From NCBI GenBank assembly GCA_028282545.1, contig JANQHT010000088.1:1-64000 (forward strand): a stretch of 64,000 nt of DNA, in the 5' to 3' direction. The notes below the pieces were generated by a model. The model ran no database searches, was not told the origin of the DNA, and was given only the letters and a program-made list of their open reading frames with translations. The DNA is from Spirochaetales bacterium (lineage in GTDB: Bacteria > Spirochaetota > Spirochaetia > DSM-27196 > Alkalispirochaetaceae). Of the stretch, positions 43,416 through 63,546 are shown piece after piece. The first letter of the stretch is position 1. Each line of letters begins with the position of its first letter. A program made the position numbers and the translations under genes.

Positions 43416-46133
43416 TTACGCCACGAACTTGCGGAGCACCGTGTGGAGAATGCCGCCGTTCCGGTAGTACTCGACCTCTACCGGTGTATCGATTCGGCAA
43501 AGCGTCTCAAACCGCACCGCCTTTCCCTCCGCCCCGGTGGCGGTAACGGTTACCGTCTGGCCCGGCTGCAACGAGTCATCGACGGCAATTGCATACTCCT
43601 CGCTTCCGTCAAGCCCGAGGGTCTCCGCCGATTCGCCGTCCCGGAACTGCAGGGGAAGAACGCCCATCCCGACGAGATTGCTCCGGTGAATCCGTTCATA
43701 ACTCTCCGCAATCACCGCGCGTACGCCGAGCAGGAAGACGCCCTTCGCGGCCCAGTCGCGGCTCGAGCCCATTCCGTAGTCCTTGCCCGCAAGAACAACC
43801 GTGGGAACGCCGGCGTCGCGGTAACACGAGGCGGCCTCAAAGATGCTCATCTCCCGGTGGTCCGGCCAGAACACGGTCCAGGAACCCTCCGTGCCGGGAA
43901 CCAGTTGGTTCCGAAACCGAATGTTCGCAAAGGTACCGCGCGTCATGATTCGGTCGTTGCCGCGTCGACTACCGTAGGAGTTGAAATCGCGCCGCTCGAT
44001 ACCGCGTCCGGCGAGATAGGTACCGGCAGGACTGTCCGGCGCGATCGCTCCGGCAGGGCTAATGTGGTCGGTGGTTATGCTGTCACCGGTTTTTACCAGG
44101 ACGCGGGCCTTTTCAATGGCAGCGATGGGCGCAACTTCGCGTCCCATGTCGACAAAAAACGGCGGCTCCTGGATATACGAGGAGGCCTCTTGCCACGGAT
44201 AGAGACTTCCTTCGCTCACGGGGATCGCGTTCCACTCTTCGTTGGACGATTCGATACCGGAGTAGCTTTCGATAAACGCCTCGCGATCGAGCGCCTTCGC
44301 CTCGTACGCCTTGAGTTCATCCGGGGCCGGCCAGATGTCGCGGAGGAAGACGGGATCGCCGCCCGTGTCGGTGCCGATCGGTTCCGAAGCAAAGTCGATT
44401 CCAACGCGTCCCGCCAGGGCGTAGGCAACGACCAGCGGCGGTGACATGAGGAAGTTGGCCCGCGTGTGCGGGTTGATCCTGCCTTCGAAGTTGCGGTTTC
44501 CGGACAGAACGCCGGCCACGACGAGATCGCCCTCCTCCACGGCTGCGACGACGTTGTCCGGCAGGGGGCCGCTGTTCCCGATGCAGGTCGTACAACCGTA
44601 TCCGACGAGGTGAAAACCCAACCGTTCCAGGTACTCCATGAGACCGGTTCGCTGTAGGTATTCGGTGACGACGATTGAACCGGGGGCGAAACTCGTTTTG
44701 ACCCACTCTTTCCGGGTGAGTCCCCGTTCGACGGCGTTCTTCGCCAGTAGCCCGGCGGCGAGGAGGACGCTCGGGTTGCTCGTGTTGGTGCAACTGGTGA
44801 TTGCAGCCAGAACGACATCCCCGTGCGTGAGTTCCACCCGATCACCGGAATCGAGGTGTACGGAAGCGCGCGCACCTTTGGCGCCGTCGTCGAGAGCGTA
44901 GCCGCGCTCATCAATCGGCGCGTCAAGGAGCCTTTCCCACTCCCCTTTCGCCTCGGTAAGCTCGATCCGGTCCTGGGGACGCTTGGGTCCGGCGATGCTG
45001 GCCTGTATCGTTGAGAGGTCGAGTTCCAGAACCGCTTCGAACTGGGGGTCCGCGGTTTCATCGGTCCGGAAGAGCCCCTGGGCGCGCGCATACGCCTCCA
45101 CGGTGCGAATGTGCTCTTCCGCCCGGCCCGTAGCCCACATGTATTCCAGGGTGCGGTGATCGACCGGGAAATACCCGACGGTTGCCCCGTACTCGGGCGC
45201 CATGTTGGAAATCGTGGCGCGATCCGGCACCGACATTGCCGAAAGGCCCGAGCCGAAAAACTCGACGAACTTGCCCACTACGCCGTGGTTGCGAAGCATC
45301 TCCGTAATGCGGAGCACAAGGTCGGTGGCTGTGATTCCCGGTTCCATTTTCCCGGTAAGCTTCACGCCGACTACCGCCGGCGCAAGGACGTACAGGGGCT
45401 GTCCGAGCATGGCAGCCTCCGCTTCTATACCGCCGACGCCCCATCCTACAACGCCAAGGCCGTTAATCATCGGCGTGTGAGAGTCCGTACCGACCAGGGA
45501 GTCAAAGAACGCCACCGCGCCGCCGCCATCGCTCCGCGTTTGAACCACCTTCCCCAGGTACTCCAGGTTCACCTGGTGGCAGATACCGCTCGCGGGGGGC
45601 ACGACGGAAAAGTTCTCGAAGGCACCCTGTCCCCACCGAAGGAACTCGTAGCGCTCCCGGTTCCGTTTGAACTCGAGTTCAGCGTTTTGTCGCAGTGCCG
45701 ACGCGTGGTTGAAGAAATCCACCTGTACGGAATGGTCGATCACCAAGTCAACGGGCAAAACCGGATTGATACGCCCCGGGTCGCCCCCTAAGCGCGCCAT
45801 GGCGCTACGCATCGCCGCCAGGTCCACAACGCTCGGCACGCCGGTGAAGTCCTGCAGGAGGACTCGCGCCGGTTTGAACGGGACTTCGTCACGGCCCGGC
45901 GCGGTCGGATTATAGGCCCCCAACGTTTCAATATGGTGTTTTGTTATAGAGAATCCGTCCTCGTTCCTCAGAATCGATTCAAGAAGAATCTGAATGGAAA
46001 AGGGCAGGCGCGAAACGCTCTCAAAACCGTTCTCCGCAAACGCTGGTAGGCTGAAATATGAGACCTCTCCCGTTTCCGTGGCGAGCGTTCTTCGTACCCC
46101 GAATGAATCTTTTGACTGAGTTGTCACTATCAT
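43416..46133 (-). CDS. acnA: Aconitate hydratase
   Basis: 905 aa from ATG 46133, which follows GAGGAGAAA; a frame to 46205 would cover the divergent region. It is an AcnA/IRP1-type enzyme: [42 protein letters not shown] in pieces, the cluster cysteines in [12 protein letters not shown] and [14 protein letters not shown], and the swivel domain [12 protein letters not shown]. It isomerises citrate to isocitrate with a 4Fe-4S cluster. It diverges from the E1-lipoyl-FabH gene over an 86 bp spacer. Confidence 0.97.
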
Positions 46134-46219
46134 TTTCTCCTCGATTCCGAATATACGTGAATTATGCAAGGCTCGACTACATTGAGCACCTGTGCTATAT
46201 TCCACGGAGGAGACGGTCC

Positions 46220-49200
46220 ATGACCGACAAAAACAAAAATTCAGACAACGATCTGCATAATATCTATTTCGACATGTACGCGGCGCGGCAACTGGACCTG
46301 CTCGAACAGAGCTATACCGGCCGTGGCGAAGCGTTCTTTCACGTATCCGGAGCCGGCCACGAGGCGACCGCGGCGCTTGCCCCGCATCTGATCGCGGACG
46401 ACTGGCTGCACTGCCACTACCGCGACAAGGCGCTGATGATCGCCCGCGGCGTCACCAGCGAAATGTTCTTCATGGCGCTTTTCAACAAGGACGGATCCCA
46501 CTCGCGGGGGCGCCAGATGAATGCGCACATGAGCGCCCCGGAACACCGGGTTCTCAGCATCGTGGGGCCGGTCGGCAACAGCGCCTTGCAAGCGGTTGGT
46601 GTCGCCGCATCGGTTCGAGCCGACGTCTCACGGCCAATCGTGCTGTGTTCGCTCGGCGAGGGGACAACGCAGGAGTCGGAGGTCACGGAAGCGATTGGCC
46701 ACGCAGCCCGGGAGAACCTGCCCGTCCTGTTCCTGATCCAGGATAACGCCTTTGCAATTTCGACCGACACCCGGGGCAAAACGTTCTATGGAACGCCGGA
46801 CCGGGAGTTTGACTCGTTCTGGGGTATCCCCATCACCAGGGTGGACGGGCGCGATGCCCGGAACGCGCACGGGGTGTTCGCGGAGGTGGTGCGCACGATT
46901 CGCGACGATCGCGCACCGCAAATCGTGGTGTTTTCCGTTGAGCGCCTCCACAGCCACACCAATGCGGACGATCATCGCGTCTATCGCAGCGAAGAGGAGA
47001 TCACGGCGATGGCGCAGCGATCAGACCCGGTCGCGCTGTTGCGGCGGGAACTGATCGACAACGGAGCCAAGGAAGACGATCTATCCGCGGAGGAAGATAG
47101 GATCAAGGAGCGCCTCACCGCCGAGGCGCGTGCGGTTCAGCGATCCGCCGAACCGGCGGTCGAAGCCCCCACGAAAAAACCCCTTCCCGCCGCCCTCACG
47201 GACAGGGATGCCGAGTACCGCGGAACCGGAGAGCAGGCCGTAACGATGCTGGAGGCGATCCGGGGTGTCCTCGACGCCAGGATGGCGGCCGATCGGCGGG
47301 TAGTTCTCTTCGGAGAGGACATCGCCGACCCCAAGGGTGACGTCTTCGGTGTAACCAAAGGACTTACCGGGAAGTACCCCGGCCGCGTGGAAAACAGCCC
47401 ACTCAGCGAGTCACTCATCGTGGGCACTTCAATAGGACGGGCCCTCGCGGGGGACCGACCCGTGGCCTTTCTGCAATTTGCCGACTTCCTTCCTATTGCC
47501 TACAATCAAATCTTCGCCGAACTCGGAAGTATGTACTGGCGAACCGACGGCAAGTGGCAGGCGCCGGTAATCGTGATGGTAACGACCGGCGGGTATCGTC
47601 CGGGCTTGGGTCCCTTCCACGCGTCGTCGATGGAGGCGGTTGCCGCACACACCCCCGGTGTAGACGTTGTTTTTCCGTCAACCGCGGCGGACGCCGCGGG
47701 CCTTCTCAACGCCGCCTTTGACTCGGAACGTCCGACGATCTTCTTCTACCCCAAGAACCAGCTCAACGATCGCGTCACGGCAACGAGTCCGGACGTGCAG
47801 AAACACCTGGTGCCGCTCGGCATCGCGAAAACGGTGCGAGAGGGCGCCGATATCACCTTTGTCACCTACGGGAACACGGTCCCCCTGGCCGGGCGGGCGG
47901 CCGTCGACCTTGCTGAAGCGGGAATCGAGGCGGAGATTATCGATCTCCGATCCCTCGTCCCCTGGGACAAGGACGCGGTGGTAGCTGCGGCCGAGAAAAC
48001 GGGCCGCCTGATCGTCACCCACGAAGACAGCCACACCGCCGGATTCGGGGCGGAGGTGCTGGCCACCGTTGGCGAACGAGCACGGAGAACCGTCCAGATG
48101 CGGCGCGTCACCCGGGACGATACGTATGTGCCGTGCAATTTCGCGAACCAGTTGGCGGTGCTGCCGAGCTACCAACGACTCGTGGAAAGCGCCGTGGAGA
48201 TGTTCGGCGGTACCACCGTGTGGAAGAAAGATGCCGCAAACGTGAGCGGTTTCTTCCAGATCGAGGCGATCGGGTCGAGCCCATCCGACGAGACGATCAC
48301 GGTGGTCGAATGGCACTGCGCCCCGGGAGATACGATTGAAGAGGGCCAACTCATCGCCGATCTGGAGGCAGACAAGGCGGCGGTGGAGCTCAAGAGTCCC
48401 GTCGGCGGGACCGTCAAGGAATTAATCATCGGCGAAGGCGATTCCGTACCGGTCGGGGCGCCGATCGTAGCGGTCCACACCGGCGGCGGCGATTCCGAGG
48501 ATTACGTCAAACCGGTAACACGGGAAGAGCCGGGCCGGCCCGTCATCTCGGGCGTCGTCAAGAGCGGTACGGTTGTCCATACGACGGCGGCCTCGGACGG
48601 CGCCACTTGTTCCATTGTGGGTGTGGCGGTCCGCCGCGGTTCCCGGCTCGTCACAAACGAAGAGATAGCACGGCTCAGTTCCTGGGACGCGGAAGATATC
48701 GAGAAACGCACCGGAATCGCGCAGCGATACTGGGTTACTGACGGTGAAGACGCGGTGACCCTCGCGCGGGACGCATCGTTCGAACTGTTCGATACGCACG
48801 GAATCGATCCTGCCACCCTGGACCTGATCGTCTTCTCGACCGGAACGCCGGTCAGCACCACACCGTCCATGGCAACGCTGCTCCACCGGGCGATCCTCGA
48901 CAGCTATGACGATTTCGAAGTCCAGGCGTTCGACGTGAACGCAGCCTGTTCGGGGTATCTCTACGCGCTCCAGGTTGCCCACGATTTTCTCAGCAATCAG
49001 CCCGATGCGAAGGTACTGGTGGTGACGAGCGAGGTCCTCAGTCCCCGTCTCGACATGGGGGACGCCGGCACGGCACCGATCTTCGGCGACACCGCCACAG
49101 CGTCCCTGCTCGTCGGTTCAGCCTACGACGGGTCCGCGGGCAAACCCCGTGTCGCGGTTCGCCGGCCGGCGCTCAGCGCGCACGGTGAAACGGGCGAGAC

Positions 49201-49570
49201 GCTCCGCGTTCCCATAGACCCGGAAGACTTGATTTCCATGGATGGGCCATCGGTCTACCTCGCAGCGGTGAAAGCGATGATGGCGAGTCTCACCCGCGCA
49301 GCCGAGATAGCGGGTGTCAACGTTGCCCGTCTGGATCGATATATCCCGCACCAAGCCAATCAGAGGATCATCAACGCCGTTCGGCAACGCATGAAGGTCG
49401 ACAAGGAACGCATGTACAGCAATATACGCGAAAACGGGAATACCTCATCCAGCACGATTCCCATCTGCCTGAGTGAATTGATTCCGACCGCGGCCTCGGG
49501 CGAATTGTGGGGCCTCACCGCCTTCGGCGGCGGATACACCTACGGCGGAGCTATCTTGGAGACGTTGTAA
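46220..49570 (+). CDS. Fusion: 2-oxo acid dehydrogenase E1alpha - E1beta - lipoyl domain - 3-oxoacyl-ACP synthase III (FabH)
   Basis: 1116 aa in one uninterrupted frame from ATG 46220, with GGAGGAG 7 bases upstream. Residues 1-310 are E1alpha ([12 protein letters not shown]...QDNAFAIS, the thiamine-diphosphate motif). Residues 335-665 are E1beta ([38 protein letters not shown]). Residues 692-755 are a lipoyl domain with the attachment lysine in LEADKAA (Lys719). Residues 797-1116 are a complete [15 protein letters not shown], Cys910 in AACSGY, His1044 in IPHQANQRI and Asn1074 in GNTSSS. No E2 acyltransferase or E3-binding domain is present. E1 would load an acyl group on the lipoyl arm, and FabH would use it to prime fatty-acid synthesis, perhaps from branched-chain 2-oxo acids. 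It is distinct from the four-gene PDH operon at 58874-63546. Confidence 0.93.
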
Positions 49571-49588
49571 CGCTCGGTGTCAGGGCAT

Positions 49589-49629
49589 AAAAAAGCCCCG
49601 GGGCAAAGGAGGTCAAAATCCCCGGGGCT
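49589..49629 (-). terminator. Rho-independent terminator after msrB
   Basis: A 10 bp GC stem followed by six Ts on the minus strand, 62 bp past the msrB stop. It stops msrB transcription before the convergent fusion gene. Confidence 0.8.
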
Positions 49630-49675
49630 GCAACCGAATATAATGTAGGTGGTCGCGTTCACTTTAATAAACAAC
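49589..49675 (-). ncRNA. Candidate small RNA with anti-Shine-Dalgarno terminator loop, copy 2
   Basis: On the minus strand: the box GTTGTTTATTAAAGTG (49675-49660), 30 bases, then a perfect 10 bp stem (AGCCCCGGGG with CCCCGGGGCT; 49629-49620 and 49603-49594) with a 16-base loop containing GACCTCCTTT and a T6 tail. The shared box and loop core with 32316-32391, with otherwise different sequence, suggest selection. It begins 16 bp after the msrB stop and could be cut from the msrB mRNA 3' end, or could simply be the msrB terminator. Confidence 0.5.
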
Positions 49676-49690
49676 AAACGCTGCCGGAGG

Positions 49691-50185
49691 TTACAGTTTC
49701 TCCGGCGCTTCCTTCCCTTCGGGAACGAACTCCAGCGAGGCTGAGTTGATGCAGTAGCGGAGTCCCGTTGGGTCCGGCCCATCGGGAAAGACGTGACCCA
49801 GGTGAGATCCGCTTCGGCTATCCACGACCTCCACTCGAACCATTCCGTGGCTCCGATCGACCCGGTACCGAACCGAGTCGGGGTCAATCGGCTCGTAAAA
49901 GCTGGGCCATCCGGACCGGGAATCGTACTTGGAGTCTGATGAGAAGAGCGGTTGGCCCGTCGCCTTCGAGTAGTAGGTACCGCGCTCGCTGTTCTTGTGC
50001 AATTCACCTGTAAAGGCGCGTTCCGTTCCCTGTTCCCGGAGTACCTGGTATTCGAAATCGGAGAGCCGTTCGCGCCACTCTTCCTCGGAAAGAGAAACGG
50101 GAAAGGACTCCGGCGCTTCCCTGCCTTGAAACATCCGTTTTTCGCGTTCCGACAAGAGGTCGAACGCATCCTTTGCAGTGCTCAT
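49691..50185 (-). CDS. msrB: Peptide methionine (R)-S-oxide reductase, zinc-less and single-cysteine
   Basis: 164 aa from ATG 50185. [24 protein letters not shown] and the catalytic Cys in [11 protein letters not shown] identify MsrB. The two zinc CxxC pairs are replaced (YSKATG, DSRSGS) and the catalytic Cys is the only cysteine, so it is a zinc-less form without a resolving Cys. It reduces methionine-R-sulfoxide in proteins; no signal peptide is seen. A TATATT lies 8 bases before the ATG, with no Shine-Dalgarno sequence. Confidence 0.93.
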
Positions 50186-50220
50186 GGGAAGGAAATATAC
50201 GTGCCGGTGTGCTCTCGCGG

Positions 50221-52710
50221 CTATTCCGGCAGAGACCGGACGAACACAATAACGCGTTCCGCTTCGGCTTTGACGTCCTTGAACAGTTCCAGCGAACGGT
50301 GGTACTCGCCGGCGTTGGTCGAATCTTCGAGCAGTTTCGCCGCGTCGCCGAGAGCCTGAGCCGAGAGATTCCACGAACCGCCCTTAATCGCGTGCGCTTC
50401 GATCCGTGCTCGCGGAAAATCGTTCTCTTCGATGGAAGTCGCAATAAGGTCCAACTGCGGTCCCAGGCGGTCCGCGTATCCCGAGAGTACGCGTTTCAAC
50501 ACGTCGGCGTCACCCATAAACGATTCGAGTGCCGCCCCGTAGTTTAGGGGCGGGGGACCATCCTCGGCGGGCGCCGAAGCGTCGGCCGGTTCCTCCACGT
50601 CTTCCACGTCGTCAAGCAGCTCTTCAACGGCGGAGATGTCGTCCACGGGAGCGTCGTCATCGTTGCCGTCGAGGATGGCGGTGTTCACGCGCGATTCCTC
50701 GGGAACTTCAGCGACACCTCCCAGGGTGAGTTCGTCCTGTTCAAACTCCCCTTTCCCCAGGCGCTCCAGGAAATAGACGACATCCTGACGTTTGAAGGGT
50801 TTGGACATATAGTCGTTCATTCCCGACCGGAGGCACCGCTCCCGTTCGCCCTTTAGCGCGTTTGCCGTAACGGCGACTACCGGCATTGACAGACCTCGCC
50901 GGCGGATCGCTCTGGTAGCCTCGTAGCCGTTCATCTCCGGCATCTGGACGTCCATGAACACCAAGTCAACCTCTTCCGAGATAGCTTTCTCTACCGCCTC
51001 CAGGCCGTTGCTCGCAAGGAAGACGTTGCACCCCTCTTTTTCGAGGATGGCCCTGAAGAGCTGCTGGTTCACGAAGTGATCTTCCGCTACGAGGATGGTT
51101 CGTTCGTGCCCCGTCGATTCAAGTTCTTCAGCGCCGTCCACCGCTTCAACGGTTACCGCCTCGAGTTCTTCGATGTCCGTAATCTGCGTTCGTTCGATCG
51201 CGTCCGCCAGTTCGAGCATCTTCACGGGCTTGTTGATATAGGCGTCAAACCACCGTAGCAATTTCATCTTGGCCTCACCGGTACTCATTCCGGAGGGGCT
51301 CATAAGGATAAGCGTGCCGAAGTTTTGCCGGGCAGAATCGTGCAGTTCGCTTGCAAACTGCCATCCATCCATGGTTGGGAGCCGGAGATCGATCAGGGTC
51401 ACGACGAACTCCCGGACAGGGCCCTTCTCCAGCATCTCCAGGGCCAGCGGCGCGTCGGTCGCTTCGTGGATATCGCACCCCCACATGGTGAGAATCTGCC
51501 GTATCGTCTCGCGACTCGACTCGCTGTCGTCCACGATCAGGACCGGCGCTCCCGCTTCGAGGCCCTCCGGCCTGCGGTCCATTCGGTCGCTCTCACGGAC
51601 AACGTCCAGCGGAATAGAGAACCAGAAGTTGGATCCAACCCCTTCCCGGCTTCTGACGCCGATCGTTCCGCCCATCATCTTGATGAGGTCCCGCGATATG
51701 GAAAGCCCCAGCCCGGTACCGCCGAACTTGCGAGTGGTGGAGGCGTCCACCTGGCTGAAGGGTCTGAAGAGCTGTTTCTGGCGCTCCTCGGGAATACCGA
51801 TCCCGGTGTCCCGGACCTGAAGCAACAGATGGACGGCGCCGTCAACCATCGCCCGCTCCGCACTCACCTTGATTTCGCCTTCGCCGGTGAACTTGGTGGC
51901 GTTGTTCACTAGATTGACAAGTACCTGCCGTATTCGACTCGGATCGCCGGTTACCACGGCGGGAAGATCGGGATCCACGGACAGGACGAGTTCAAGGCCC
52001 TTCCGGTGCGCCTGAATGCTCACCAGATCTACCGCTTCTTCGAGCATCCCCGGGAGATCGAACTCGATGCTCTCCAGGTGGAGCTTGCCGGCCTCTATCT
52101 TGGAAAAATCGAGGATGTCATTGATGAGCCCCAACAGCGCTTCCCCGGCAAAACGGATCGAATTGACGTATTCCGCCTGTTCCTCGTTCATATCGGTTTC
52201 GAAGAGGAGTTCCGACATCCCGTTGATCGTGTGCAAAGGCGTCCGGATCTCGTGACTCATGTTGGCAAGGAACGCGCTTTTGGTCTGCGTTGCCTCCTCA
52301 GCGAGTTCTTTTGCCCGTCGCAGTTGCGCTTCATCTTCTTTCTGGTCGGTGACGTCGTCCACAACGGCCAGGATAAACGGTGACTGTCCCTTGCTTTGTA
52401 CACTCCGCGTGTCCACCCGCCAATAGGCGACGTCGCCGTTTTTTTTTCGACATCGACCGGTAATCTGAAAGGTTCGCCGCTCGCCCTCTACCAAGGCCGA
52501 GTAATGGCTGCGAAAGGTCTCCGCATCGTCGGGATCCGCGTAGTTGACCAGGTAGGTCGTGGCCAATTCAGAATCGTTGTATCCGAGGAAGCGTTGAAGA
52601 GCCTGGTTTGTATAGAGTATGCACCCGGTACCGTCCATGACGACGATGCCGATCGGTGCGTGTTCGAAGATAACCTGGAACTGACGCCCGAATCCGGTGC
52701 TCCTGGTCAT
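50221..52710 (-). CDS. Hybrid sensor histidine kinase (PAS-HisKA-HATPase-REC-REC-Hpt)
   Basis: 829 aa from ATG 52710 with GGGGAAG upstream. A PAS domain (about 8-125) leads to HisKA ([19 protein letters not shown], His near 158), HATPase ([26 protein letters not shown]), a first receiver ([22 protein letters not shown]), a second receiver ([23 protein letters not shown]) and a C-terminal Hpt domain ([13 protein letters not shown]). It has no transmembrane segments, so it senses a cytoplasmic signal. It is co-transcribed with the double-receiver gene 18 bp upstream, its likely partner. Confidence 0.95.
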
Positions 52711-52728
52711 GAACGCTTCCCCGGCGAA

Positions 52729-53985
52729 TCAGAAGTTGGCCCGAAGCACTTCCGAAGCCTTCTTCCGCAACACCTGTGGTTTCAGCGGTTTGATCATGTA
52801 GCTCGAGACGCCCTGTTTCAACGCCTGAGCCACCGTCTCGCGTTTCGAAAGCGCCGAGAGGACGATAATCGGCAGTTTGATCTCCTGTCGTCGCAATTCC
52901 TGGAGCACTTCGAAGCCGTTCATTTCGGGCATCATCAGATCGAGGAAAACCAAGTCGGGGTTCAGATCCGGCGCGGCGTCTACGAATTCGCGTCCGTTGT
53001 TGAACGCTTTGATCTGGAACTTCGTGTCGGAAAAAGCGGTCTTGATGAGCTCTTGGATGATGATATCGTCGTCTACGATTATGATCTCAACCGTATCACC
53101 CAGATCCGCCAGTTCGACTGCACCCTGCTCCTGCTGAAAACGGAGGTTGATCGCTTCACCCTTCTGCTTCTTCGGAGCGCTGGTAGACAGAACGCCCTCC
53201 ATCGAATCGGTGTTCCGTTCCAGGATGGGGCCGTCGGATCGCACGTTGAGAAGCCCGTCCATCGCCCGTTCCAAGTTTGACGTCACCTCGATCGCACTCA
53301 GATCCGAGCGTCCCATGAAAAACTCTTTCACATAGTCGCTGTTTGTCAGGAATTTTACATTTTTAGGATGTGCACCGCTCCCTTCAACGACGGTTGTAAC
53401 GAGGGCGGAGAGCTTGTCCGTATCCGCCGTGGAAACCTCAATGCTCGTCATGATCACGAGAATCCGCGGTTTCCTGATAGTGTACAGATCCAAGAGTTCC
53501 CGAATCTTGTAGCGAAGCAGGTCCACTTTCTCGCGGTTGAGCCCCTGTGCCACTTCGATGAAGACGATTTCGTCGTTTACGTGGGCTTCGACGATGCACG
53601 GCGTTGTATCGATACTGACCGGAACGTTCAGCGTCTCGGAAACGGCCTCCAGGAGAGCGTCCACACGAATCGGTTTTGTCAGGAATTTTTTTACGTTGTA
53701 ACGGGCAACTTGGACCAGGGCGTCGCGGTCTATCTTGGTGGACGCCATAATAACGGGGATGTCGGCCGTGTTTGGATGCGCCTGTTTTTCCGCAAGCACC
53801 TCCAAGACAGACTTCCGCGTCAAATGGTAGTCGGTGATAAGAAGGTCCGGCATCTCGCTCCGCAGCTTGGATATCGCGTCCAAACCGCTGACACCCACGG
53901 AGACCTCGAACCCGTAGTCCTCGAGTTTGCGCTTGAGGTAATCCCTGAACAGTTGAGATTCGTCAATGACAAGAATGCTCTTCAT
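52729..53985 (-). CDS. Double-receiver protein, REC - STAS-like domain - REC
   Basis: 418 aa from ATG 53985. The first receiver (about 1-120) has ILVIDESQ, acceptor Asp in LLITDYHLT and Lys in FLTKP. The middle (about 130-245; EVAQGLNREKVDLLRYKIRELL...RILVIMTSIEVS...NLERAMDGLL) follows the strand/helix order of STAS anti-anti-sigma domains; this is inference. The second receiver has IIIVDDDI, VFLDLMMPEMNG and MIKPL. There is no DNA-binding output. Together with the hybrid kinase it forms a phosphorelay module. Its promoter is at 54002-54030. Confidence 0.9.
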   Translation of the reverse strand: MKSILVIDESQLFRDYLKRKLEDYGFEVSVGVSGLDAISKLRSEMPDLLITDYHLTRKSVLEVLAEKQAHPNTADIPVIMASTKIDRDALVQVARYNVKKFLTKPIRVDALLEAVSETLNVPVSIDTTPCIVEAHVNDEIVFIEVAQGLNREKVDLLRYKIRELLDLYTIRKPRILVIMTSIEVSTADTDKLSALVTTVVEGSGAHPKNVKFLTNSDYVKEFFMGRSDLSAIEVTSNLERAMDGLLNVRSDGPILERNTDSMEGVLSTSAPKKQKGEAINLRFQQEQGAVELADLGDTVEIIIVDDDIIIQELIKTAFSDTKFQIKAFNNGREFVDAAPDLNPDLVFLDLMMPEMNGFEVLQELRRQEIKLPIIVLSALSKRETVAQALKQGVSSYMIKPLKPQVLRKKASEVLRANF

Positions 53986-54001
53986 GACGCGTTCCGGCTC
54001 C

Positions 54002-54030
54002 ATTATCACCGGGGCCTTGCACATAATCAA
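54002..54030 (-). promoter_or_regulatory. Predicted promoter of the double-receiver/kinase operon
   Basis: On the minus strand TTGATT (54030-54025), a 17 bp spacer and GATAAT (54007-54002). The start codon is 16 bases past the -10, after a GGAG, so this mRNA has a short leader, in contrast to the leaderless genes. Confidence 0.5.
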
Positions 54031-54052
54031 GACAAACCGCTACCGTCCTGCC

Positions 54053-55846
54053 ATGCTGGAAGAATTCGACACAGAACGTTCGAACCGGCGAAACGCGTTC
54101 GCCCGGTCCATGATTCTCAGCGCCTCCGGTTGGCGAGCGGTCTTCGGCGACGGGGACCACGGTCTGGCCGAGTCTATCGGCCTCGAAGCGCGGGATGCGG
54201 TGGTTGTTGCTGCCACGCTCTTTGCGGAGGCCCTTACTTCAGCGGGTGACACGATCTGCGTCGGCACCGACACTCGTCCTACCGGCGCCGTAATCGCTGA
54301 AACTGCAATACGTTCCATCCTCGCGGCCGGTCGTGAAGTTGCGTTTCTCGGACGAGTCGCATCGCCGGAGCTCATGGCGTTTGTGAAAAACTCGCCGGAG
54401 ATCGATGCGTTTTTCTACGTCACCGCCAGCCACAATCCGCCGGGACATAACGGTTTCAAACTGGGCGGTTCAGACGGCGCCGTGATCTCCCGGGACCGGG
54501 CGCTCCCGCTTATCGAACGGTTCATAAAGGTAATCGCGGACGACGATTCAGTGCATCCCGTTGTTGCCGAAGCGGATGCGGTCCAGCGGTCACGCCTTGA
54601 CGCGGTATATCGCCGGCAGATCTCCCTCAAGGCGGCCGCCGAAGCGCGGTATCGCGAATTTGCCCTCTCCGTCGCCTCGGGGCACGACGATGATGAGGCA
54701 AACCAGCGGTTTGTCGATGACCTTCGCTCCCATTACCTGAACGCTCCCCTTGGAATCGTTGCCGAATTGAACGGAAGCGCCCGGGCGCTCTCGGTTGATC
54801 GCTCGCTTCTGACGGAACTCGGTGTTCGCCTCTCCGTACACAACGACAAACCGGGCCTGTTCGCCCACGAAATCGTTCCCGAAGGGGCGTCGCTCGCGCC
54901 GGCAGCGGCCATACTCGAAGAATGTGCCCGGTTCGATCCCGCCTTCAAACTCGCCTACGTCCCCGACAACGACGGTGACCGGGGAAACCTCGTCTTCCTG
55001 AACTCGGACGGAGCCGCCACGGTCCTGGAGGCGCAGGAGGTGTTTGCTCTGGCCCTTACGGCGGAACTCGCCTGGACTCGGCGACGCGGGCAAAAACGTC
55101 CCGTGGCGGTCGCGATCAACGGACCGACGTCCATACGGATAGACCGTATCGCCCGCGCCTTCAACGCCGAAGTATTCCGGGCGGAAGTGGGAGAGGCGAA
55201 CGTGGTCAACCTGGCGGCAGAATTGCGGGAACGCGGCTATCTTGTGCCTATCTGCGGCGAAGGCAGCAACGGCGGCACGATCGTTCATCCAGCAACGGTA
55301 CGTGATCCGCTGAACACGCTCCTGACCGTACTCAAGTTCCTCCGCCACCAGTTGTACAGGGAGTGGAGCGCCGTGTCGGGCGGAGGCACGGTCTGGGCGC
55401 AGGAGCCTTCTCTCGTTGACGTTGTCAACTCCCTTCCGGCCTTTTCGACGACCAATGCCAACGACGGGGATGCGAAAATGAAGGTCCGGACGAGTGACCA
55501 GGGCCGGCTCAAAGGTCGATACGAGGCGATTCTCCCGGAGCGCGTTGGAACGGCCCTGGCGATTCTCGAACCTCACTTCGGGAAACTTGCCTGGCGGGAA
55601 ACGAACCTCGAAGGAACTCAGGAACGGGTCGGTTCCGGGCCGGGAGTCCGCAGCGGCGCGGAACGCGGCGGCCTACGCGTCGTATTTTCCGCCGCCGACC
55701 GGGACTGCGCGGCGGTCTGGATGCGCGGAAGCGGCACCGAACCGCTGTTTCGTATCCTCGCCGACGTTGAGGGTGCCCACCCCGAGGTGGAGCGGGCCCT
55801 GCTCGACTGGCAACGCAGCCTCGTTTTGGAGGCAGACGTAGGTTAG
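54053..55846 (+). CDS. Phosphohexomutase (phosphoglucomutase/phosphomannomutase family)
   Basis: 597 aa from ATG 54053. It has the phosphoserine loop VTASHNPPGHNGFK, the metal loop VPDNDGDRGNL (a variant of DGDxDR), a sugar loop ICGEGSNGGT and the phosphate loop MRGSGTEPLFR. The protein is longer than usual (450-550), with an insertion in the middle. It converts hexose 1- and 6-phosphates for glycan and storage metabolism. A weak TTGCAC/TACCGT promoter would again start at the ATG. The 3' end overlaps MutY by 4 bp. Confidence 0.9.
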   Translation: MLEEFDTERSNRRNAFARSMILSASGWRAVFGDGDHGLAESIGLEARDAVVVAATLFAEALTSAGDTICVGTDTRPTGAVIAETAIRSILAAGREVAFLGRVASPELMAFVKNSPEIDAFFYVTASHNPPGHNGFKLGGSDGAVISRDRALPLIERFIKVIADDDSVHPVVAEADAVQRSRLDAVYRRQISLKAAAEARYREFALSVASGHDDDEANQRFVDDLRSHYLNAPLGIVAELNGSARALSVDRSLLTELGVRLSVHNDKPGLFAHEIVPEGASLAPAAAILEECARFDPAFKLAYVPDNDGDRGNLVFLNSDGAATVLEAQEVFALALTAELAWTRRRGQKRPVAVAINGPTSIRIDRIARAFNAEVFRAEVGEANVVNLAAELRERGYLVPICGEGSNGGTIVHPATVRDPLNTLLTVLKFLRHQLYREWSAVSGGGTVWAQEPSLVDVVNSLPAFSTTNANDGDAKMKVRTSDQGRLKGRYEAILPERVGTALAILEPHFGKLAWRETNLEGTQERVGSGPGVRSGAERGGLRVVFSAADRDCAAVWMRGSGTEPLFRILADVEGAHPEVERALLDWQRSLVLEADVG

Positions 55847-56700
55847 TCGCCTATGCGCAGCTTCCCGTCGTCATCCCGCCGAACCAGCCCGTCCCGGACC
55901 AGGGTCGACAGGGCCCGGGAGATGCGTTCCGCGCTGAGCCCGGTGAAAGACGGCACCTCTTCCGCCGCCACCATTCCGCGATCGGTGAGGACGCGGAGGA
56001 TCGCTCCGCGCGCCTCACGGTTGCTTTCGCGAAATGGAGCCTGCCTCTGGTATTCGCGGCTCCGCCGATTGGGATTCTCAACGACGCTTTTGACAAACGC
56101 ACCGTAGTCCATAAACGCCCAGTACCATTCGCGCGGTCGTTCAACGTCCAGTGAATGTTTCACAACCGGCATGACCCGCGCGTCCGGGACGTCCTGTTCG
56201 TCCGGGAAGAACTCGTGGAGCACCGCGCGGCGTATGTTTGTTTCAATAAACACAACGGGGCGATTGTAGGCGAAGGCGACGATTGAACCGGCGGTATTCC
56301 GTCCTATCCCCGGAAACGTGACCAACGTATCCGGTTCATCCGGGAGCACACCGTCGTGTTCACGTACGATGATTCCGGCGGTTTGATGCAGGAAGCGGGC
56401 GCGACGGTTGTACCCGAGCCCCTGCCACGTTTCAACCACCGCAAACAGAGAAGCCTCCGATAGGTCTCGTAAGGAAGGGAATCGTTCCACAAAACGCGGG
56501 AAATGGTTCAGCACTCGGGGAACCTGCGTCTGCTGGAGCATGATTTCGGACACAAGAATCCAGTACGGATCGGTGTTGCTCCGCCACGGCATGGGGCGTG
56601 CGGCGGTGCGGTAGTGCTCCCACACCTTCGCGCGGAACGAGGTAATGGCCTCTTCGGAACGGGCTCCGGCCGGGGGCCCGTTCCACGGCGACTCTTTCAA
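55843..56700 (-). CDS. MutY-like HhH-GPD DNA glycosylase lacking the iron-sulfur cluster
   Basis: 285 aa from TTG 56700, overlapping the trpS stop (TTGA). The HhH-GPD domain is clear: PWRSNTDPYWILVSEIMLQQTQV in pieces, WQGLGYNRRARFL and FPGIGRNTAGSIVAFAY. The catalytic loop reads FIETNIRR where MutY normally has LDGNVKR. After MDYGAF the four cluster cysteines of MutY are missing (KSVVENPNRRSREYQRQ). The C-terminus is a winged-helix-like segment (EEVPSFTGLSAERISRAL) instead of the NUDIX-like domain. It likely removes a mispaired base such as adenine opposite 8-oxoguanine, but specificity is uncertain. Confidence 0.85.
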   Translation of the reverse strand: MKESPWNGPPAGARSEEAITSFRAKVWEHYRTAARPMPWRSNTDPYWILVSEIMLQQTQVPRVLNHFPRFVERFPSLRDLSEASLFAVVETWQGLGYNRRARFLHQTAGIIVREHDGVLPDEPDTLVTFPGIGRNTAGSIVAFAYNRPVVFIETNIRRAVLHEFFPDEQDVPDARVMPVVKHSLDVERPREWYWAFMDYGAFVKSVVENPNRRSREYQRQAPFRESNREARGAILRVLTDRGMVAAEEVPSFTGLSAERISRALSTLVRDGLVRRDDDGKLRIGD

Positions 56701-57749: not shown

Positions 57750-57767
57750 GGCGCTCAATCCTTTCCT

Positions 57768-58856: not shown

Positions 58857-58873
58857 TGCGTTTCCCCATCCCC

Positions 58874-60265
58874 TTAGGCGTGAATCGCCCAGCCCTCGAT
58901 GGCACGGGCCGCTTCCATGACCGCTTCAGAAATCGTCGGGTGCGCGTGAACCATGGTGGCAACGTCTTCCGGCAGCAACTCAGCGCTCTTGGCGAGAAGC
59001 AACTCGTGGATGATCTCCGTTGCATCTTTTCCAACCGCGTGGGCGCCCAGGATCTCGCGACTTGCGGCGTCCACGATCACCTTCACGTGCCCTTCCGCCT
59101 GGTCGATTGCGACCGTTTTGCCGGCACCGCGATACGGGAAGAGCTGTGTTTCAATGGTGCGTCCCGCCTCCCGGGCGGCCTTTTCGGTCAGGCCGAAGCT
59201 GCCCACCTGCGGCTCGCAGTAGACCGCCCCGGGGATAAGCCCGTCGCCGATTCGCGGCTCGGGATCGTGCCCGGCGATCGTTTCCACCGCGATCTCCCCT
59301 TCCTTGCTCGCCACGTGTGCAAGCAACGGTGTCGCGACGACATCTCCGATGGCGAAGATCGTATCCACGGCGGTTCGGTAGTAGTCACCAACGACGATGA
59401 AACCACGGTCTACCTGGACTCCGACGCGATCGAGCCCCAAGCCTTCACTGTTGGGGGCGCGCCCGACCGCAACAAGGAGCTTCTCCGCCGAGAGGTCCTC
59501 CGTTTTCCCCGACGAATCCTCCACCGTCACCGTGACGCCCTTGGCGGTGGTGGCCAGTTTTGTCGCCCGGGTGCCGGTACGCGTCACGATCCCGTACCGC
59601 TTGAACGCTTTCTCGACCACCGACACGGAATCGGCGTCTTCAAGAGGAAGCAGTTGGTCTAGCATCTCCACCACGGTTACCTCAACCCCGAAGGCGTTCA
59701 TCACGTAGGCAAACTCCATCCCGATGGCGCCCGCCCCGAGAATGATGAGGCTCTTCGGAAGCGAATTTAGGGCAAGGATATCGCGCGACGAAATAACGCG
59801 GTCCTGGTCGAAGGCGAAGCCCGGTACTTCCCGGGGTCTGGAACCGGTGGCGATGATTACGTTGGCCGCGGTCACCGCGTCCTTTCCGTCGATAACCACT
59901 TCGTGGGCCGACTTGAACTCGGCCGTACCGGTGATGTACTCGACGTTGTTTTTCTTCAGGAGGAACTGAATCCCTTTGGAGAGCTTCGAAGCGGCCTGCC
60001 TCGATTTTTTGTGTACTTTCCCGTAGTCAATGCTCGAAAGGTCAACCGACGCGCCCATGTCGGCAAGGGCGGCCGAATCGTGAACGAGTTCCGCCTGGCG
60101 AATAAGCGCCTTGGACGGTATGCATCCCCAATTGAGACATACGCCCCCGGGTTGGTCCTTTTCCACGACCGCCGCTTTGAGCCCCAGTTGAGACGCTCGA
60201 ATAGCCGCCACGTAGCCGCCGGGTCCGGCGCCTATCACAAGAACGTCGTATTGATAGTCACTCAT
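58874..60265 (-). CDS. lpdA: Dihydrolipoyl dehydrogenase (E3)
   Basis: 463 aa from ATG 60265 with AAGGAGTACC upstream. It has the FAD loop VLVIGAGPGGYVAAIRA, the redox disulfide GGVCLNWGCIPSKAL, the NAD loop LIILGAGAIGMEFAYV, IFAIGDV and the C-terminal HAHPTISE. It reoxidises dihydrolipoamide of the PDH complex encoded upstream. The lipoyl domain of the FabH fusion could use it too. Confidence 0.97.
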   Translation of the reverse strand: MSDYQYDVLVIGAGPGGYVAAIRASQLGLKAAVVEKDQPGGVCLNWGCIPSKALIRQAELVHDSAALADMGASVDLSSIDYGKVHKKSRQAASKLSKGIQFLLKKNNVEYITGTAEFKSAHEVVIDGKDAVTAANVIIATGSRPREVPGFAFDQDRVISSRDILALNSLPKSLIILGAGAIGMEFAYVMNAFGVEVTVVEMLDQLLPLEDADSVSVVEKAFKRYGIVTRTGTRATKLATTAKGVTVTVEDSSGKTEDLSAEKLLVAVGRAPNSEGLGLDRVGVQVDRGFIVVGDYYRTAVDTIFAIGDVVATPLLAHVASKEGEIAVETIAGHDPEPRIGDGLIPGAVYCEPQVGSFGLTEKAAREAGRTIETQLFPYRGAGKTVAIDQAEGHVKVIVDAASREILGAHAVGKDATEIIHELLLAKSAELLPEDVATMVHAHPTISEAVMEAARAIEGWAIHA

Positions 60266-60277
60266 GCAGGTACTCCT

Positions 60278-61570
60278 TTACAGAACCATTCGCGCCGGTT
60301 CTTCAATAAGCTGCGTCAATTCTCGGAGGAACCGCGCCCCCAGGGCTCCATCGATTACCCGGTGGTCGCAGGACAACGTTAGTTTCATCAGGTTTGCTAC
60401 GACGATGTCTCCGTCCTCGTCAACCACAGGCGTGGCGATCGTCTTTCCTACCGCCAGGATCGCCGAACCGGGCGGGTTAATGATCGCCGTAAACTCCTCG
60501 ATCCCGAAAGAACCCAGGTTGCTGATCGTGAACGTTGCACCGTTGTACTCCTCCGGTGCGAGGGCGTTGTTACGGGCCTTCTCTATCAGCACCTGCAGTT
60601 CGGCGTCGATCGCCACCACGCCCTTGTTGGCGCAGTTCCGGACGATCGGTGTGATCAACCCGTTCCCAACGTCAACGGCGAGTCCAATATCAACGCTGCC
60701 GAACTGGAGTATCTCGGTCTCCTGCCAACCGGCGTTAACGGCGGGATGGCGGCGCAACGCTTCAGCGGCGAACTTCATCAGGTACGCGTTGAAGGATACC
60801 TTGGAATCGAGTTCCCGGTTTGCCGAAGAGCGGGCCCGAACCAGGGCGGAAACCTCCGCGGAGCTCTTTAGGTAGAAATGGGGCGCACTGAACTTGCTCT
60901 CCGACAGGCGCCGGGCGATGACCGACCGTATCTTGGTTACGGGAATGCGCTCATCGGCTCCGGGCAGGCCCGCAACCGCGCCGGCGGAAACGGGTCTCGC
61001 CGTGGGAACGCCCCGGAAATTTTCCACGTCCGCTTTGGTAACTCTGCCGTCGGGGCCGGAGCCCGGTACCAGCAAAATGTCGACGTTCCGCGCCGCGGCG
61101 AGTTTTCGGGCCACCGGCGTCGCCTTGATGCGGCCGGAGGCGGCCGGCGTCGGAGAGACCTGCGGGGGAACCGCAGCGGGTGCGGAGGACGGCGCTGGAA
61201 CGCCGGCGGGTCCATCCGCGGCGGGTACGCCGGCAGATTCTCCGGCGGGCGTCGTCTCTGCGGTGGATGGTTCCTCCGGTGCGGGAGGTGCCGCGGCGGG
61301 GGCGGAGGCGAGAAGTTCTTCAAAACTCTCTCCCGATTCACCAAGAACGGCGATGGTGTCCCCGACGCGGGCGGAAGAACCCTCGGTTACTACGATCTTG
61401 AGGAGCGTCCCCTCCTGGGTCGCTTCGTACTCCATGGTCGCCTTGTCGGTCTCTACCTCGCACAGGACGTCCCCGGTGCTGACCGTGTCGCCCTCTTTTT
61501 TGCTCCATGACGCAATGGTTCCCTCCTCCATCGTTGGGGAGAGCGCAGTCATCAGTACAAGTTCCGCCAT
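60278..61570 (-). CDS. pdhC: Dihydrolipoamide acetyltransferase (PDH E2)
   Basis: 430 aa. One N-terminal lipoyl domain (ETDKATMEYEA) is joined by an Ala/Pro-rich linker to a peripheral-subunit-binding domain (ATPVARKLAAARNVDILLVPGSGPDGRV in pieces). The catalytic domain ends in SCDHRVIDGALGARFL, the HxxxDG active site. The start ATG 61570 overlaps the end of pdhB within GGAGTAGAAGATG. Confidence 0.96.
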   Translation of the reverse strand: MAELVLMTALSPTMEEGTIASWSKKEGDTVSTGDVLCEVETDKATMEYEATQEGTLLKIVVTEGSSARVGDTIAVLGESGESFEELLASAPAAAPPAPEEPSTAETTPAGESAGVPAADGPAGVPAPSSAPAAVPPQVSPTPAASGRIKATPVARKLAAARNVDILLVPGSGPDGRVTKADVENFRGVPTARPVSAGAVAGLPGADERIPVTKIRSVIARRLSESKFSAPHFYLKSSAEVSALVRARSSANRELDSKVSFNAYLMKFAAEALRRHPAVNAGWQETEILQFGSVDIGLAVDVGNGLITPIVRNCANKGVVAIDAELQVLIEKARNNALAPEEYNGATFTISNLGSFGIEEFTAIINPPGSAILAVGKTIATPVVDEDGDIVVANLMKLTLSCDHRVIDGALGARFLRELTQLIEEPARMVL

Positions 61571-61573
61571 CTT

Positions 61574-62554
61574 CTACTCCATGTAACAGACGCGCTTCGT
61601 CGCGTCCACGATCTTTTCGATGGTCGGCTGGACAGCCAGCTCGAGCCGGTGATTGTACGGCATCGGAACGTCCTCGCTTGCAACGAGTTCAACCGGTGCG
61701 TCCAGGTCGTCAAAACAGTTCCGCGAGATCATCCACGCCACGTGAGAACCGACGCTGGCCACCGGCCACGACTCTTCAACAACGACGGCGCGGTTCGTCT
61801 TTCGCACGGAGGCGTAGATCGTCGATTCGTCGATGGGCCTGAGCGAACGCAAATCCACCACTTCCGCCGATACGCCGAGTTTCTCTAATTCGCCCGCGGC
61901 GGCGAGCACCATGCGAACGGGTTTGGAATAGCTGATGAGGGTAACGTCCGCACCCTCTCGTTTTACGTCGGCTTCGCCGAAGGGGATCAGGTACTCCTCC
62001 TCCGGCACGTCACCGGTCCATCCGTATGACATCTCGCTCTCGAGAAAAACGACCGGGTTGTCGTCGCGAATGGCCGTCTTCAAGAGGCCTTTCGCATCGT
62101 AGGGAGTACTGGGGGCAACCACTTTCAATCCCGGGATGTGGGCGTAGTAGCTCTGGAACGCCTGCGAATGCTGCGACGAGAGGTATTCGGCCGGGCCGTT
62201 GGGACCACGGAGAACCATCGGGACCTTGAGCTGCCCCCCCGACATGTGACGCAGCTTGGCGGCGTTGTTCACCACCTGGTCCAAGGCCAGGAGCGAGAAG
62301 TTGAACGTCATCCACTCAACAATGGGCCGGAGCCCCACCGATGCCGCACCGACCCCGATACCGGTGAAACCAAGCTCCGTTATCGGCGTATCCCGAACTC
62401 GCTTGGGACCGTACTTGTCCAGCAGCCCCTTGGTTACCTTGTAGGCACCGTTGTACTCCCCGACCTCCTCGCCCATGATAAAGACGGTTTTGTCGCGGGC
62501 CATCTCCTCGTCGATTGCTTGGCGTAGCGCTTCGCGCATCTGAATTTCAGGCAT
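61574..62554 (-). CDS. pdhB: Pyruvate dehydrogenase E1 component, beta subunit
   Basis: 326 aa from ATG 62554 with GGAGGGAGAACG upstream. It has FIMGEEVGEYNGAYKVTKGLLDKYG in pieces, RDTPITELGFTGIGVGAA and VVEESWPVASVGSHVAWM. With PdhA it forms the thiamine-dependent E1 that decarboxylates pyruvate. Confidence 0.96.
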   Translation of the reverse strand: MPEIQMREALRQAIDEEMARDKTVFIMGEEVGEYNGAYKVTKGLLDKYGPKRVRDTPITELGFTGIGVGAASVGLRPIVEWMTFNFSLLALDQVVNNAAKLRHMSGGQLKVPMVLRGPNGPAEYLSSQHSQAFQSYYAHIPGLKVVAPSTPYDAKGLLKTAIRDDNPVVFLESEMSYGWTGDVPEEEYLIPFGEADVKREGADVTLISYSKPVRMVLAAAGELEKLGVSAEVVDLRSLRPIDESTIYASVRKTNRAVVVEESWPVASVGSHVAWMISRNCFDDLDAPVELVASEDVPMPYNHRLELAVQPTIEKIVDATKRVCYME

Positions 62555-62568
62555 CGTTCTCCCTCCGC

Positions 62569-63546
62569 CTAGGCAAGGATGTCTTCGTACATGGTGTGCA
62601 ACGCCGGTTCTTCACTCGATTCGGCGAACTCGACGGACTCGTTGACGCGTTTTTTGGCCTTCTCATCGATCGAAGCGTACGCTTTGTCATCGATGAATCC
62701 CGCGTCGATCATACGGGACTTGAGCTGAAGGATCGGGTCCTGCTTCTTGTAGGCCTCGAGTTCCTCCTTGGTGCGATACTTACCGGGATCGCTCATGCTG
62801 TGTCCCTTGTAACGGTACGTTTTGATGTCCAGCAGCCAGGCTGTCCCGCTCTTTCGTGAATCCGTAGCAACCTCTTTGATCCCTTCGTATATCGCTATAA
62901 AGTCCATTCCATCGATCGTCTTCCCGGGCAGGTCGTAGCCGGCCGCCTTGATCGAGAAGTCCTCAACGCCCGATACGCGCGTGACCGCCGTACCCATGCC
63001 GAAGTGGTTGTTTTCAACGATAAGGATGACCGGTAATTTCCAGATCTTTGCCAAGTTCAGCGTCTCATGGAAGGCACCCTGGTGAATGGCGCCGTCCCCG
63101 AAGTAGCACAGGGTGACGCCACCATCGCCGTCGTACATCTGCTTGAACGCCACGCCGGCGGCAATGGGGATCTGTGCCCCCACGATCCCGTTTCCACCGA
63201 GAAAATGGCGCTCCGCATCGAACATGTGCATCGAACCGCCCTTGCCCCGGGAACAACCGGTAACCTTCCCGTACAGCTCGGCCATAACGACGTTCGGATC
63301 CATACCTACCGCCAGGGCGTGGCCGTGGTCACGGTAGGAGGTAAGGATATAGTCTTTTTTGAGGTCCAGGGCCGCGACGCTTCCCACCGCAACCGCTTCC
63401 TGGCCGTTGTAGAGGTGGCAAAAACCACCGATCTTCCGGAGACCGTACATCTGCGCGGCCTTTTCTTCGAAGCGTCGAATGAGGACCATGTCTTCAAGGG
63501 CCTTCACCAGGAAGTTCTTTTTGTACGAACTGAGATCACTCATCAC
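62569..63546 (-). CDS. pdhA: Pyruvate dehydrogenase E1 component, alpha subunit
   Basis: 325 aa. GGSMHMFDAERHFLGGNGIVGAQIPIAAG in pieces and YFGDGAIHQGAFHETLNLAKIWKLPVILIVENNHFGMGT contain the thiamine-diphosphate GDG...NN motif, and YRYKGHSMSDPGKYRT the phosphorylation-loop region. It starts at GTG 63546 or ATG 63543, a few bases after the PNPOx-like stop. Confidence 0.96.
   Translation of the reverse strand: MMSDLSSYKKNFLVKALEDMVLIRRFEEKAAQMYGLRKIGGFCHLYNGQEAVAVGSVAALDLKKDYILTSYRDHGHALAVGMDPNVVMAELYGKVTGCSRGKGGSMHMFDAERHFLGGNGIVGAQIPIAAGVAFKQMYDGDGGVTLCYFGDGAIHQGAFHETLNLAKIWKLPVILIVENNHFGMGTAVTRVSGVEDFSIKAAGYDLPGKTIDGMDFIAIYEGIKEVATDSRKSGTAWLLDIKTYRYKGHSMSDPGKYRTKEELEAYKKQDPILQLKSRMIDAGFIDDKAYASIDEKAKKRVNESVEFAESSEEPALHTMYEDILA

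Follow-up and report, generated by a model that had tools for sequence, protein, structure and literature searches.

Domain architecture of the fusion gene

The DNA analysed here, hereafter the window, is a stretch of 64,000 nucleotides from a Spirochaetales bacterium (assembly GCA_028282545.1, contig JANQHT010000088.1, positions 1 to 64,000), and it carries a gene in which both halves of a 2-oxo acid dehydrogenase E1, a lipoyl domain and a FabH-type ketosynthase (KAS III) are joined in one chain. An earlier note on this DNA had described a single 1116-residue frame combining E1-alpha, E1-beta, a lipoyl domain and a full KAS III, and reading of the frame together with Pfam searches confirmed that description. 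Read directly, the sequence has GGAGGAG upstream of the ATG, at the usual distance of a ribosome-binding site. The gene and its parts are as follows:

46220..49570, + strand: complete fusion gene, E1-alpha/E1-beta/lipoyl/KAS III (1116 aa and a stop codon)
46280..47158, + strand: E1-alpha (thiamine diphosphate) domain, residues 21-313 (PF00676, E1_dh, 119 bits)
47237..48157, + strand: E1-beta, residues 340-646 (PF02779 Transket_pyr, 340-516; PF02780 Transketolase_C, 536-646)
48296..48472, + strand: lipoyl domain, residues 693-751, with its attachment lysine (Lys719) in E-A-D-K-A (PF00364, Biotin_lipoyl)
48473..48607, + strand: linker between lipoyl domain and KAS III, residues 752-796, rich in Ala, Gly and Pro, without a Pfam match
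48608..49567, + strand: KAS III (FabH) domain, residues 797-1116 (PF08545 ACP_syn_III, 904-970; PF08541 ACP_syn_III_C, 1031-1114)

Neither the E2 catalytic domain 2-oxoacid_dh (PF00198) nor the peripheral subunit (E3) binding domain was found in the chain by Pfam at E<=0.01, so the supposed absence of an E2 acyltransferase domain was borne out. NCBIfam FabH models match residues 797-1114 with scores under their cut-offs (242.7 against 249 bits and 215.2 against 292.1 bits), NCBIfam pyruvate dehydrogenase (PDH) E1 models match the first part of the protein far under cut-off, and no model among the best 25 of the 34 that match the fusion reached its curated cut-off.

The residues expected to carry out catalysis are intact, as had been proposed. 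Aligned fusions share Lys719 and the KAS III residues Cys910, His1044 and Asn1074 without exception (45/45), and they likewise share the thiamine-site residues R68, G146, G148, N176 and H246 of E1-alpha and E397 and H467 of E1-beta, as well as the whole lipoyl segment E716-A720. Arg1049 corresponds to Arg249 of E. coli FabH. Judged from these matches, the fusion has the thiamine diphosphate domains and residues of the E1 of a 2-oxo acid dehydrogenase complex, and likewise a lipoyl domain with its lysine (PF00364; K719 in 45/45). The linker measures about 42-77 residues across the 45 fusions and is the least conserved part, with a mean identity to the window of 32%; a strict linker motif was considered, but it occurs in 31/45 fusions only and none is claimed. 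AlphaFold2 models from two-row alignments (the window plus the Marinobacter copy L003) had low confidence, with a mean predicted local distance difference test score of 41.6 and 33.3.

Distribution of the fusion

The window's genome is a draft of 165 contigs, and the earlier note had named an assembly artefact joining separate genes as an outcome that would undo its reading. A search for the same domain order was made among 297 genomes drawn evenly from the class, the window's own included. Matches at E<=1e-90 were found in 68/297, and in 48 (own included), belonging to 13 families, one stop-free match extends over at least 1,046 of the 1,116 residues; three of these 48 genomes consist of one contig (G052, G071 and G077). 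Because so many genomes hold the same stop-free frame, an artefact of assembly or a chance joining of genes is refuted, with a residual probability that is negligible. The other 20 of the 68 genomes have an incomplete match, one divided into two or more segments, a broken gene (G008) or a match confined to the E1-lipoyl part (G170). Genome G008, which we take to be probably Salinispira pacifica, has two fusion copies (L042, 6826-10342; L043, 6671-8893), both in pieces in different frames.

At the level of the phylum, 10/296 genomes match at E<=1e-100, nine of them from the window's class and the tenth being G467, whose protein is described below. A copy outside the phylum lies in Marinobacter halodurans (genome G494, L003, 7577-11050). 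In samples centred on that genome, 4/369 of its class match at E<=1e-120 (G494, G610, G532 and G814, of which the G532 match starts inside E1-alpha and the G814 match is E1-lipoyl only) and 2/398 of its phylum match at E<=1e-110 (G494 and G1209). The L003 copy groups with that of G012 in the KAS III tree with support 100, which suggests that it was either acquired from a spirochaete or lies on a stray contig. Read by eye, the L003 copy adjoins transposase-looking frames. No viral contig carrying the fusion was confirmed, and the plasmid search gave 1,025 matching records, none covering more than 80% of the query. Open-access literature searches directed at the fusion brought up no paper that describes it in the title or the opening of the abstract.

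Loss of the CoA-adenine site in the KAS III domain

If a tethered lipoyl group feeds FabH, the coenzyme A (CoA) site would be expected to decay while catalysis and docking of the acyl carrier protein (ACP) stay. We aligned the KAS III domains of 48 fusions (44 from the class and those of Marinobacter, G610, G532 and G1209) with 41 stand-alone FabHs from that class and with E. coli FabH, whose numbering is used for this comparison. In the CoA-bound E. coli enzyme, Thr28 hydrogen-bonds the adenine, Trp32 and Arg151 sandwich it, and Arg36 is assigned to the phosphopantetheine (PMC4606726). All three adenine contacts are absent from the fusions and nearly universal in the stand-alone enzymes: Thr28 is found in 0/48 fusions (Trp in 45) against 40/41 stand-alone FabHs, Trp32 in 0/48 (Asp 35, Glu 9, Gly 3, Ala 1) against 40/41, and Arg151 in 0/48 (Pro 32, Lys 6, others 10) against 41/41. 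The Cys112, His244 and Asn274 triad is kept in 48/48 fusions, and Arg249, presumably an ACP-docking residue, is kept in 48/48 fusions and 40/41 stand-alone FabHs.

As a control we read the same positions in 22 other KAS III sequences, 20 from the class and two from the Marinobacter genome; L098, which is the fusion itself, and L100, in which no frame passed the profile, were left out. One of the two from the Marinobacter genome, L097, appears to be its ordinary FabH. The control KAS IIIs often lack Trp32 and Arg151, but 14/22 lack the triad too. Of the eight that keep it, five have Trp32 and six have Arg151. None of the 22 combines the triad and Arg249 with loss of both Trp32 and Arg151, which argues that the pattern of the fusions is not mere KAS III divergence. 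One KAS III-like paralogue group of the class (L102, L106, L108, L110, L114 and L115) has the Cys and lacks the catalytic His and Asn in the usual places (FDMEAMCGSMMA motif).

In a quick tree of 90 rows, 26 of them fusions, the fusion KAS IIIs form one clade (Shimodaira-Hasegawa-like approximate likelihood ratio test, 99; long branches were flagged, including L126), so the adenine site may have been lost once, long ago. What is informative is that the loss has been maintained, with varied residues in its place, under a fully kept triad. Since the adenine site is lost while the triad and Arg249 are kept, it is probably the acyl-dihydrolipoyl arm of the same chain that feeds the FabH domain of the fusion. 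The earlier proposal that the acyl group bypasses CoA thus gains support from an independent line, the consistent loss of adenine contacts in an otherwise intact FabH, and the site comparison suggests direct transfer from lipoyl to Cys910.

A proposed CoA-free start of fatty-acid synthesis

E2 normally transfers the acyl group from dihydrolipoyl to CoA (PMC5986005). We consider it rather probable that the fusion is a 2-oxo acid dehydrogenase without E2 in which a ketosynthase takes the place of CoA as the acyl acceptor, with branched substrates the likeliest. On the furthest-reaching reading, to which we give a probability of roughly 55%, this one polypeptide would provide a CoA-free start to fatty-acid synthesis, turning a (branched) 2-oxo acid and malonyl-ACP into 3-oxoacyl-ACP with the ketosynthase replacing E2.

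The intact residues suggest that E1, on thiamine diphosphate, would decarboxylate the 2-oxo acid and reductively acylate the lipoyl group on Lys719. The lipoyl arm, on its flexible linker, would then pass the acyl group to Cys910 by transthioesterification, a step to which the loss of the CoA-adenine site lends support, and the intact triad and docking arginine are consistent with KAS III condensing the acyl group with malonyl-ACP via His1044 and Asn1074 to give 3-oxoacyl-ACP for elongation. An E3 acting in trans, such as the one encoded in the PDH operon described below, would reoxidise the dihydrolipoyl group with NAD+. The net reaction would be 2-oxo acid + malonyl-ACP + NAD+ -> 3-oxoacyl-ACP + 2 CO2 + NADH, with no involvement of acyl-CoA. 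The likeliest substrates would be branched 2-oxo acids, giving iso and anteiso starters, while acetyl-CoA from PDH would go to the separate, ordinary FabH. Because E3, malonyl-ACP and the lipoate-attaching enzyme must come from outside, the description of the enzyme as self-contained was too strong.

Substrate clues

Position 87 of FabH is gapped in all fusions in the full alignments, so it was read by motif as the residue beside P-x-x-A, a reading that depends on the alignment. The motif answered for 37/47 fusions (L126, a false hit, was dropped) and 27/42 stand-alone rows (L072 and L079, also false, were dropped). Of the 36 fusions read, 31 have Thr and 5 have Ser before P-x-x-A, where E. 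coli has Phe87; of the 25 stand-alone FabHs read, with that of E. coli counted, 14 have Phe, 7 Leu, 3 Tyr and 1 Ile. A bulky Phe87 is linked to acetyl-CoA and Thr87 or small residues to long acyl groups (PMC3734052).

The best solved relatives of the E1-alpha part are 1um9 ('2-oxo acid dehydrogenase') and the human branched-chain E1, which rank above PDH, and among solved structures E1-beta is closest to chain B of 1um9 ('2-oxo acid dehydrogenase beta subunit'). We take 1um9 to be a branched-chain enzyme. A single E2 match is present in 5/41 of the fusion genomes compared in the next section. In four of these (G012, G057, G082 and G114) the E1-alpha adjoining the E2 passes the NCBIfam PDH cut-off, and the E2s themselves score under their own NCBIfam cut-off (402.5 to 440.5 against 445 bits); since their sole E2 adjoins a PDH-type E1-alpha, these four genomes seem to lack a branched-chain E2. 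The E2 locus of the fifth, G091, is unclassified. One report gives Salinispira pacifica 11.7% iso-C15:0, implies iso-C15:0 for S. africana and describes S. asiatica and S. dissipatitropha as lacking it (PMC4511686).

The earlier suggestion of branched-chain starters therefore stands as plausible, on the strength of position 87, the top E1-alpha matches and the four genomes with a PDH-type operon only; it is held back by the mixed E1 matches and by the broken G008 copies. The likelier substrate is plausibly a branched 2-oxo acid, on evidence that is indirect and in part mixed.

Co-occurrence and genomic surroundings

In 65 chosen genomes, 41 with the fusion (the broken copies of G008 counted) and 24 without, we recorded separate FabH and E2 genes. 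A separate KAS III frame is present in at least 39/41 fusion genomes; in G092 the fusion is the only KAS III match listed, and in G030 a second match lies outside the matches listed. A KAS III match is present in 19/24 genomes without the fusion. E2 was found in 41/41 fusion genomes against 12/24 without. Because separate FabH and E2 are kept in this way, the fusion appears to be an addition in genomes already running lipoyl enzymes, and by gene content it is an extra initiator. Replacement of FabH or E2 by the fusion was rejected on the same counts, and the signature put forward earlier, that fusion genomes would lack a separate FabH or Bkd E2, did not hold.

Besides the fusion, the window contains an ordinary PDH operon and an aconitase gene:

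58874..63546, - strand: complete pyruvate dehydrogenase operon (NCBIfam)
62569-63546, - strand: PDH operon E1-alpha (NCBIfam)
61574-62554, - strand: PDH operon E1-beta (NCBIfam)
60278-61570, - strand: PDH operon E2 (NCBIfam)
58874-60265, - strand: PDH operon E3 (NCBIfam)
43416-46205: aconitase gene, running divergently to the fusion

The view of the fusion as an extra enzyme beside a complete PDH is thus supported, and this operon is a possible source of E3 for it. In 6/41 fusion genomes (G000, G003, G004, G006, G052 and G077) the contig that carries the fusion also has an E2 match no more than about 17 kb away, the case in the window spanning 46220-61570, which may hint at a shared E3. By BLAST and partly by eye we compared 18 neighbourhoods, that of the window and 17 more, among which were both broken G008 copies. 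The pairing with aconitase recurs in G059 only (L039), there with further shared neighbours, and no family besides the fusion recurs in more than five of the 18. No biosynthetic cluster was seen among twelve fusion neighbours read by eye. Promoter-like sites numbered 2 against 1.1 (standard deviation 1.0) in shuffles, and terminator-like sites 3 against 3.6.

Related systems

With branched-chain 2-oxo acid and pyruvate dehydrogenase complexes the fusion shares the E1 halves, the thiamine-site residues and the lipoyl domain with its lysine; it differs from them in that no E2 catalytic or E3-binding domain was found and KAS III stands in the place of E2. With FabH of type II fatty-acid synthesis it shares the Cys-His-Asn triad, Arg249 and sequence matches in Pfam and the PDB, but its adenine site is lost in 48/48, it is joined to its acyl supplier and it falls under the NCBIfam FabH cut-offs.

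A related E1 is found in other proteins too. In G467, of the same phylum, a single chain (L044, 1602-4835) runs E1-alpha/E1-beta-lipoyl-E2 acyltransferase; its E1-lipoyl part is related to the fusion at 39% identity, but it ends in a 2-oxoacid_dh acyltransferase domain whereas the fusion ends in KAS III. On a Streptomyces xanthii plasmid (NZ_CP061282.1, L054, 17929-22962), an E1-alpha/beta gene, related to the fusion E1 at 36% identity, is followed by a megasynthase whose N-terminus is ordered lipoyl, E2-like (2-oxoacid_dh), ACP and ketosynthase (KS). Here too a lipoyl arm lies inside a chain-building enzyme, but the E1 has a gene to itself, lipoyl and KS are separated by an E2-like domain and an ACP, and ketoacyl-synt is a far better match to the KS than KAS III is. 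The acyl group is apparently loaded from lipoyl onto the assembly line, and with the arm built into a chain-building enzyme CoA may be bypassed in this system as well. The cluster resembles a streptogramin cluster. Given the E2 of G467, the KAS III of the fusions and the lipoyl-E2-ACP-KS order of S. xanthii, it seems that more than one kind of acyl acceptor has been joined to the E1-lipoyl unit. The G814 protein (L125, 9626-11968) is a 781-aa E1-alpha/beta-lipoyl protein without E2 or KAS III, whose neighbours are SET-domain, WelO5-like, weakly matched ATP-grasp and amidohydrolase genes.

Alternative explanations

Several observations weigh against the proposed CoA-free start from branched 2-oxo acids. 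The fusion genomes keep E2 and nearly always a separate FabH, the window's own genome holds further E2 loci, and the fusion has no E3-binding domain. On the pantetheine side, position 36 holds Arg, as Arg36, in 40/48 fusions (His in 36/41 stand-alone FabHs), and Lys256, presumably a basic ACP-contact residue, is Gln in 41/48. The triad-bearing paralogues L112 and L120 also lack Trp32 and Arg151, together with Arg249. Given the single clade, the 48 sequences may not represent 48 independent losses of Trp32 and Arg151, and loss of the adenine contacts is compatible with weak use of CoA. Within genus g2 the fusion is patchy, present in 5/7 genomes and absent from the near-complete G001 and G002. 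Branched-chain E1-alphas 1qs0 and 2bp7 rank below PDH as matches, the E1-beta structure matches fail to separate the branched-chain from the PDH kind, and both G008 copies are broken, yet Salinispira pacifica (probably G008) makes iso-C15:0.

Some of these points would also fit a KAS III that still takes acyl-CoA, the fusion merely gathering E1, lipoyl and FabH while a PDH or branched-chain E2 in trans makes the acyl-CoA. At least one E2 in each of the 41 fusion genomes, the retained Arg36 and the six genomes with an E2 close to the fusion agree with this explanation, but it leaves the absence of three adenine contacts in 48/48 fusions beside a retained triad and Arg249, as well as a chain without E2 or E3-binding domain, to be accounted for, and we regard it as unlikely. 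A doubtful but better-placed alternative keeps the direct transfer and changes the substrate, so that acetyl from pyruvate would give a shortcut to acetoacetyl-ACP. The NCBIfam models that match E1, far under cut-off, bear the name pyruvate dehydrogenase, the PDH operon lies near the fusion in the window, and the E1-beta structures do not favour branched-chain enzymes; against this, PDH and ordinary FabH already do that job, the residue at position 87 is small in the 36 fusions read, and 1um9 and the human branched-chain E1 are the best E1-alpha matches, none of which is decisive.

The fusion might also make a special product and not a membrane fatty-acid primer, as part of a secondary pathway in which KAS III would condense the acyl group with a different carrier or extender. 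The KAS III-less relative in G814 with its SET, WelO5-like and weakly matched ATP-grasp neighbours, the related E1 preceding the S. xanthii megasynthase and the frequent Gln at position 256 all point this way, but no neighbouring family recurs in more than five of the 18 neighbourhoods, no biosynthetic cluster stands out among the twelve neighbours read by eye, and occurrence in 13 families is unlike a specialised product, which makes this rather improbable.

Implications

FabH-initiated type II fatty-acid synthesis always starts, to our knowledge, from acyl-CoA. If the CoA-free start is correct, a ketosynthase fed by lipoyl would be a new entry into fatty-acid synthesis, and the E2 step would prove replaceable by an enzyme that forms carbon-carbon bonds. 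Branched starters would be kept separate from the CoA pool, and one gene would constitute a portable module leading from 2-oxo acids to branched fatty acids. CoA-free initiation would then have been kept across many families of one class and would be present in a second phylum.

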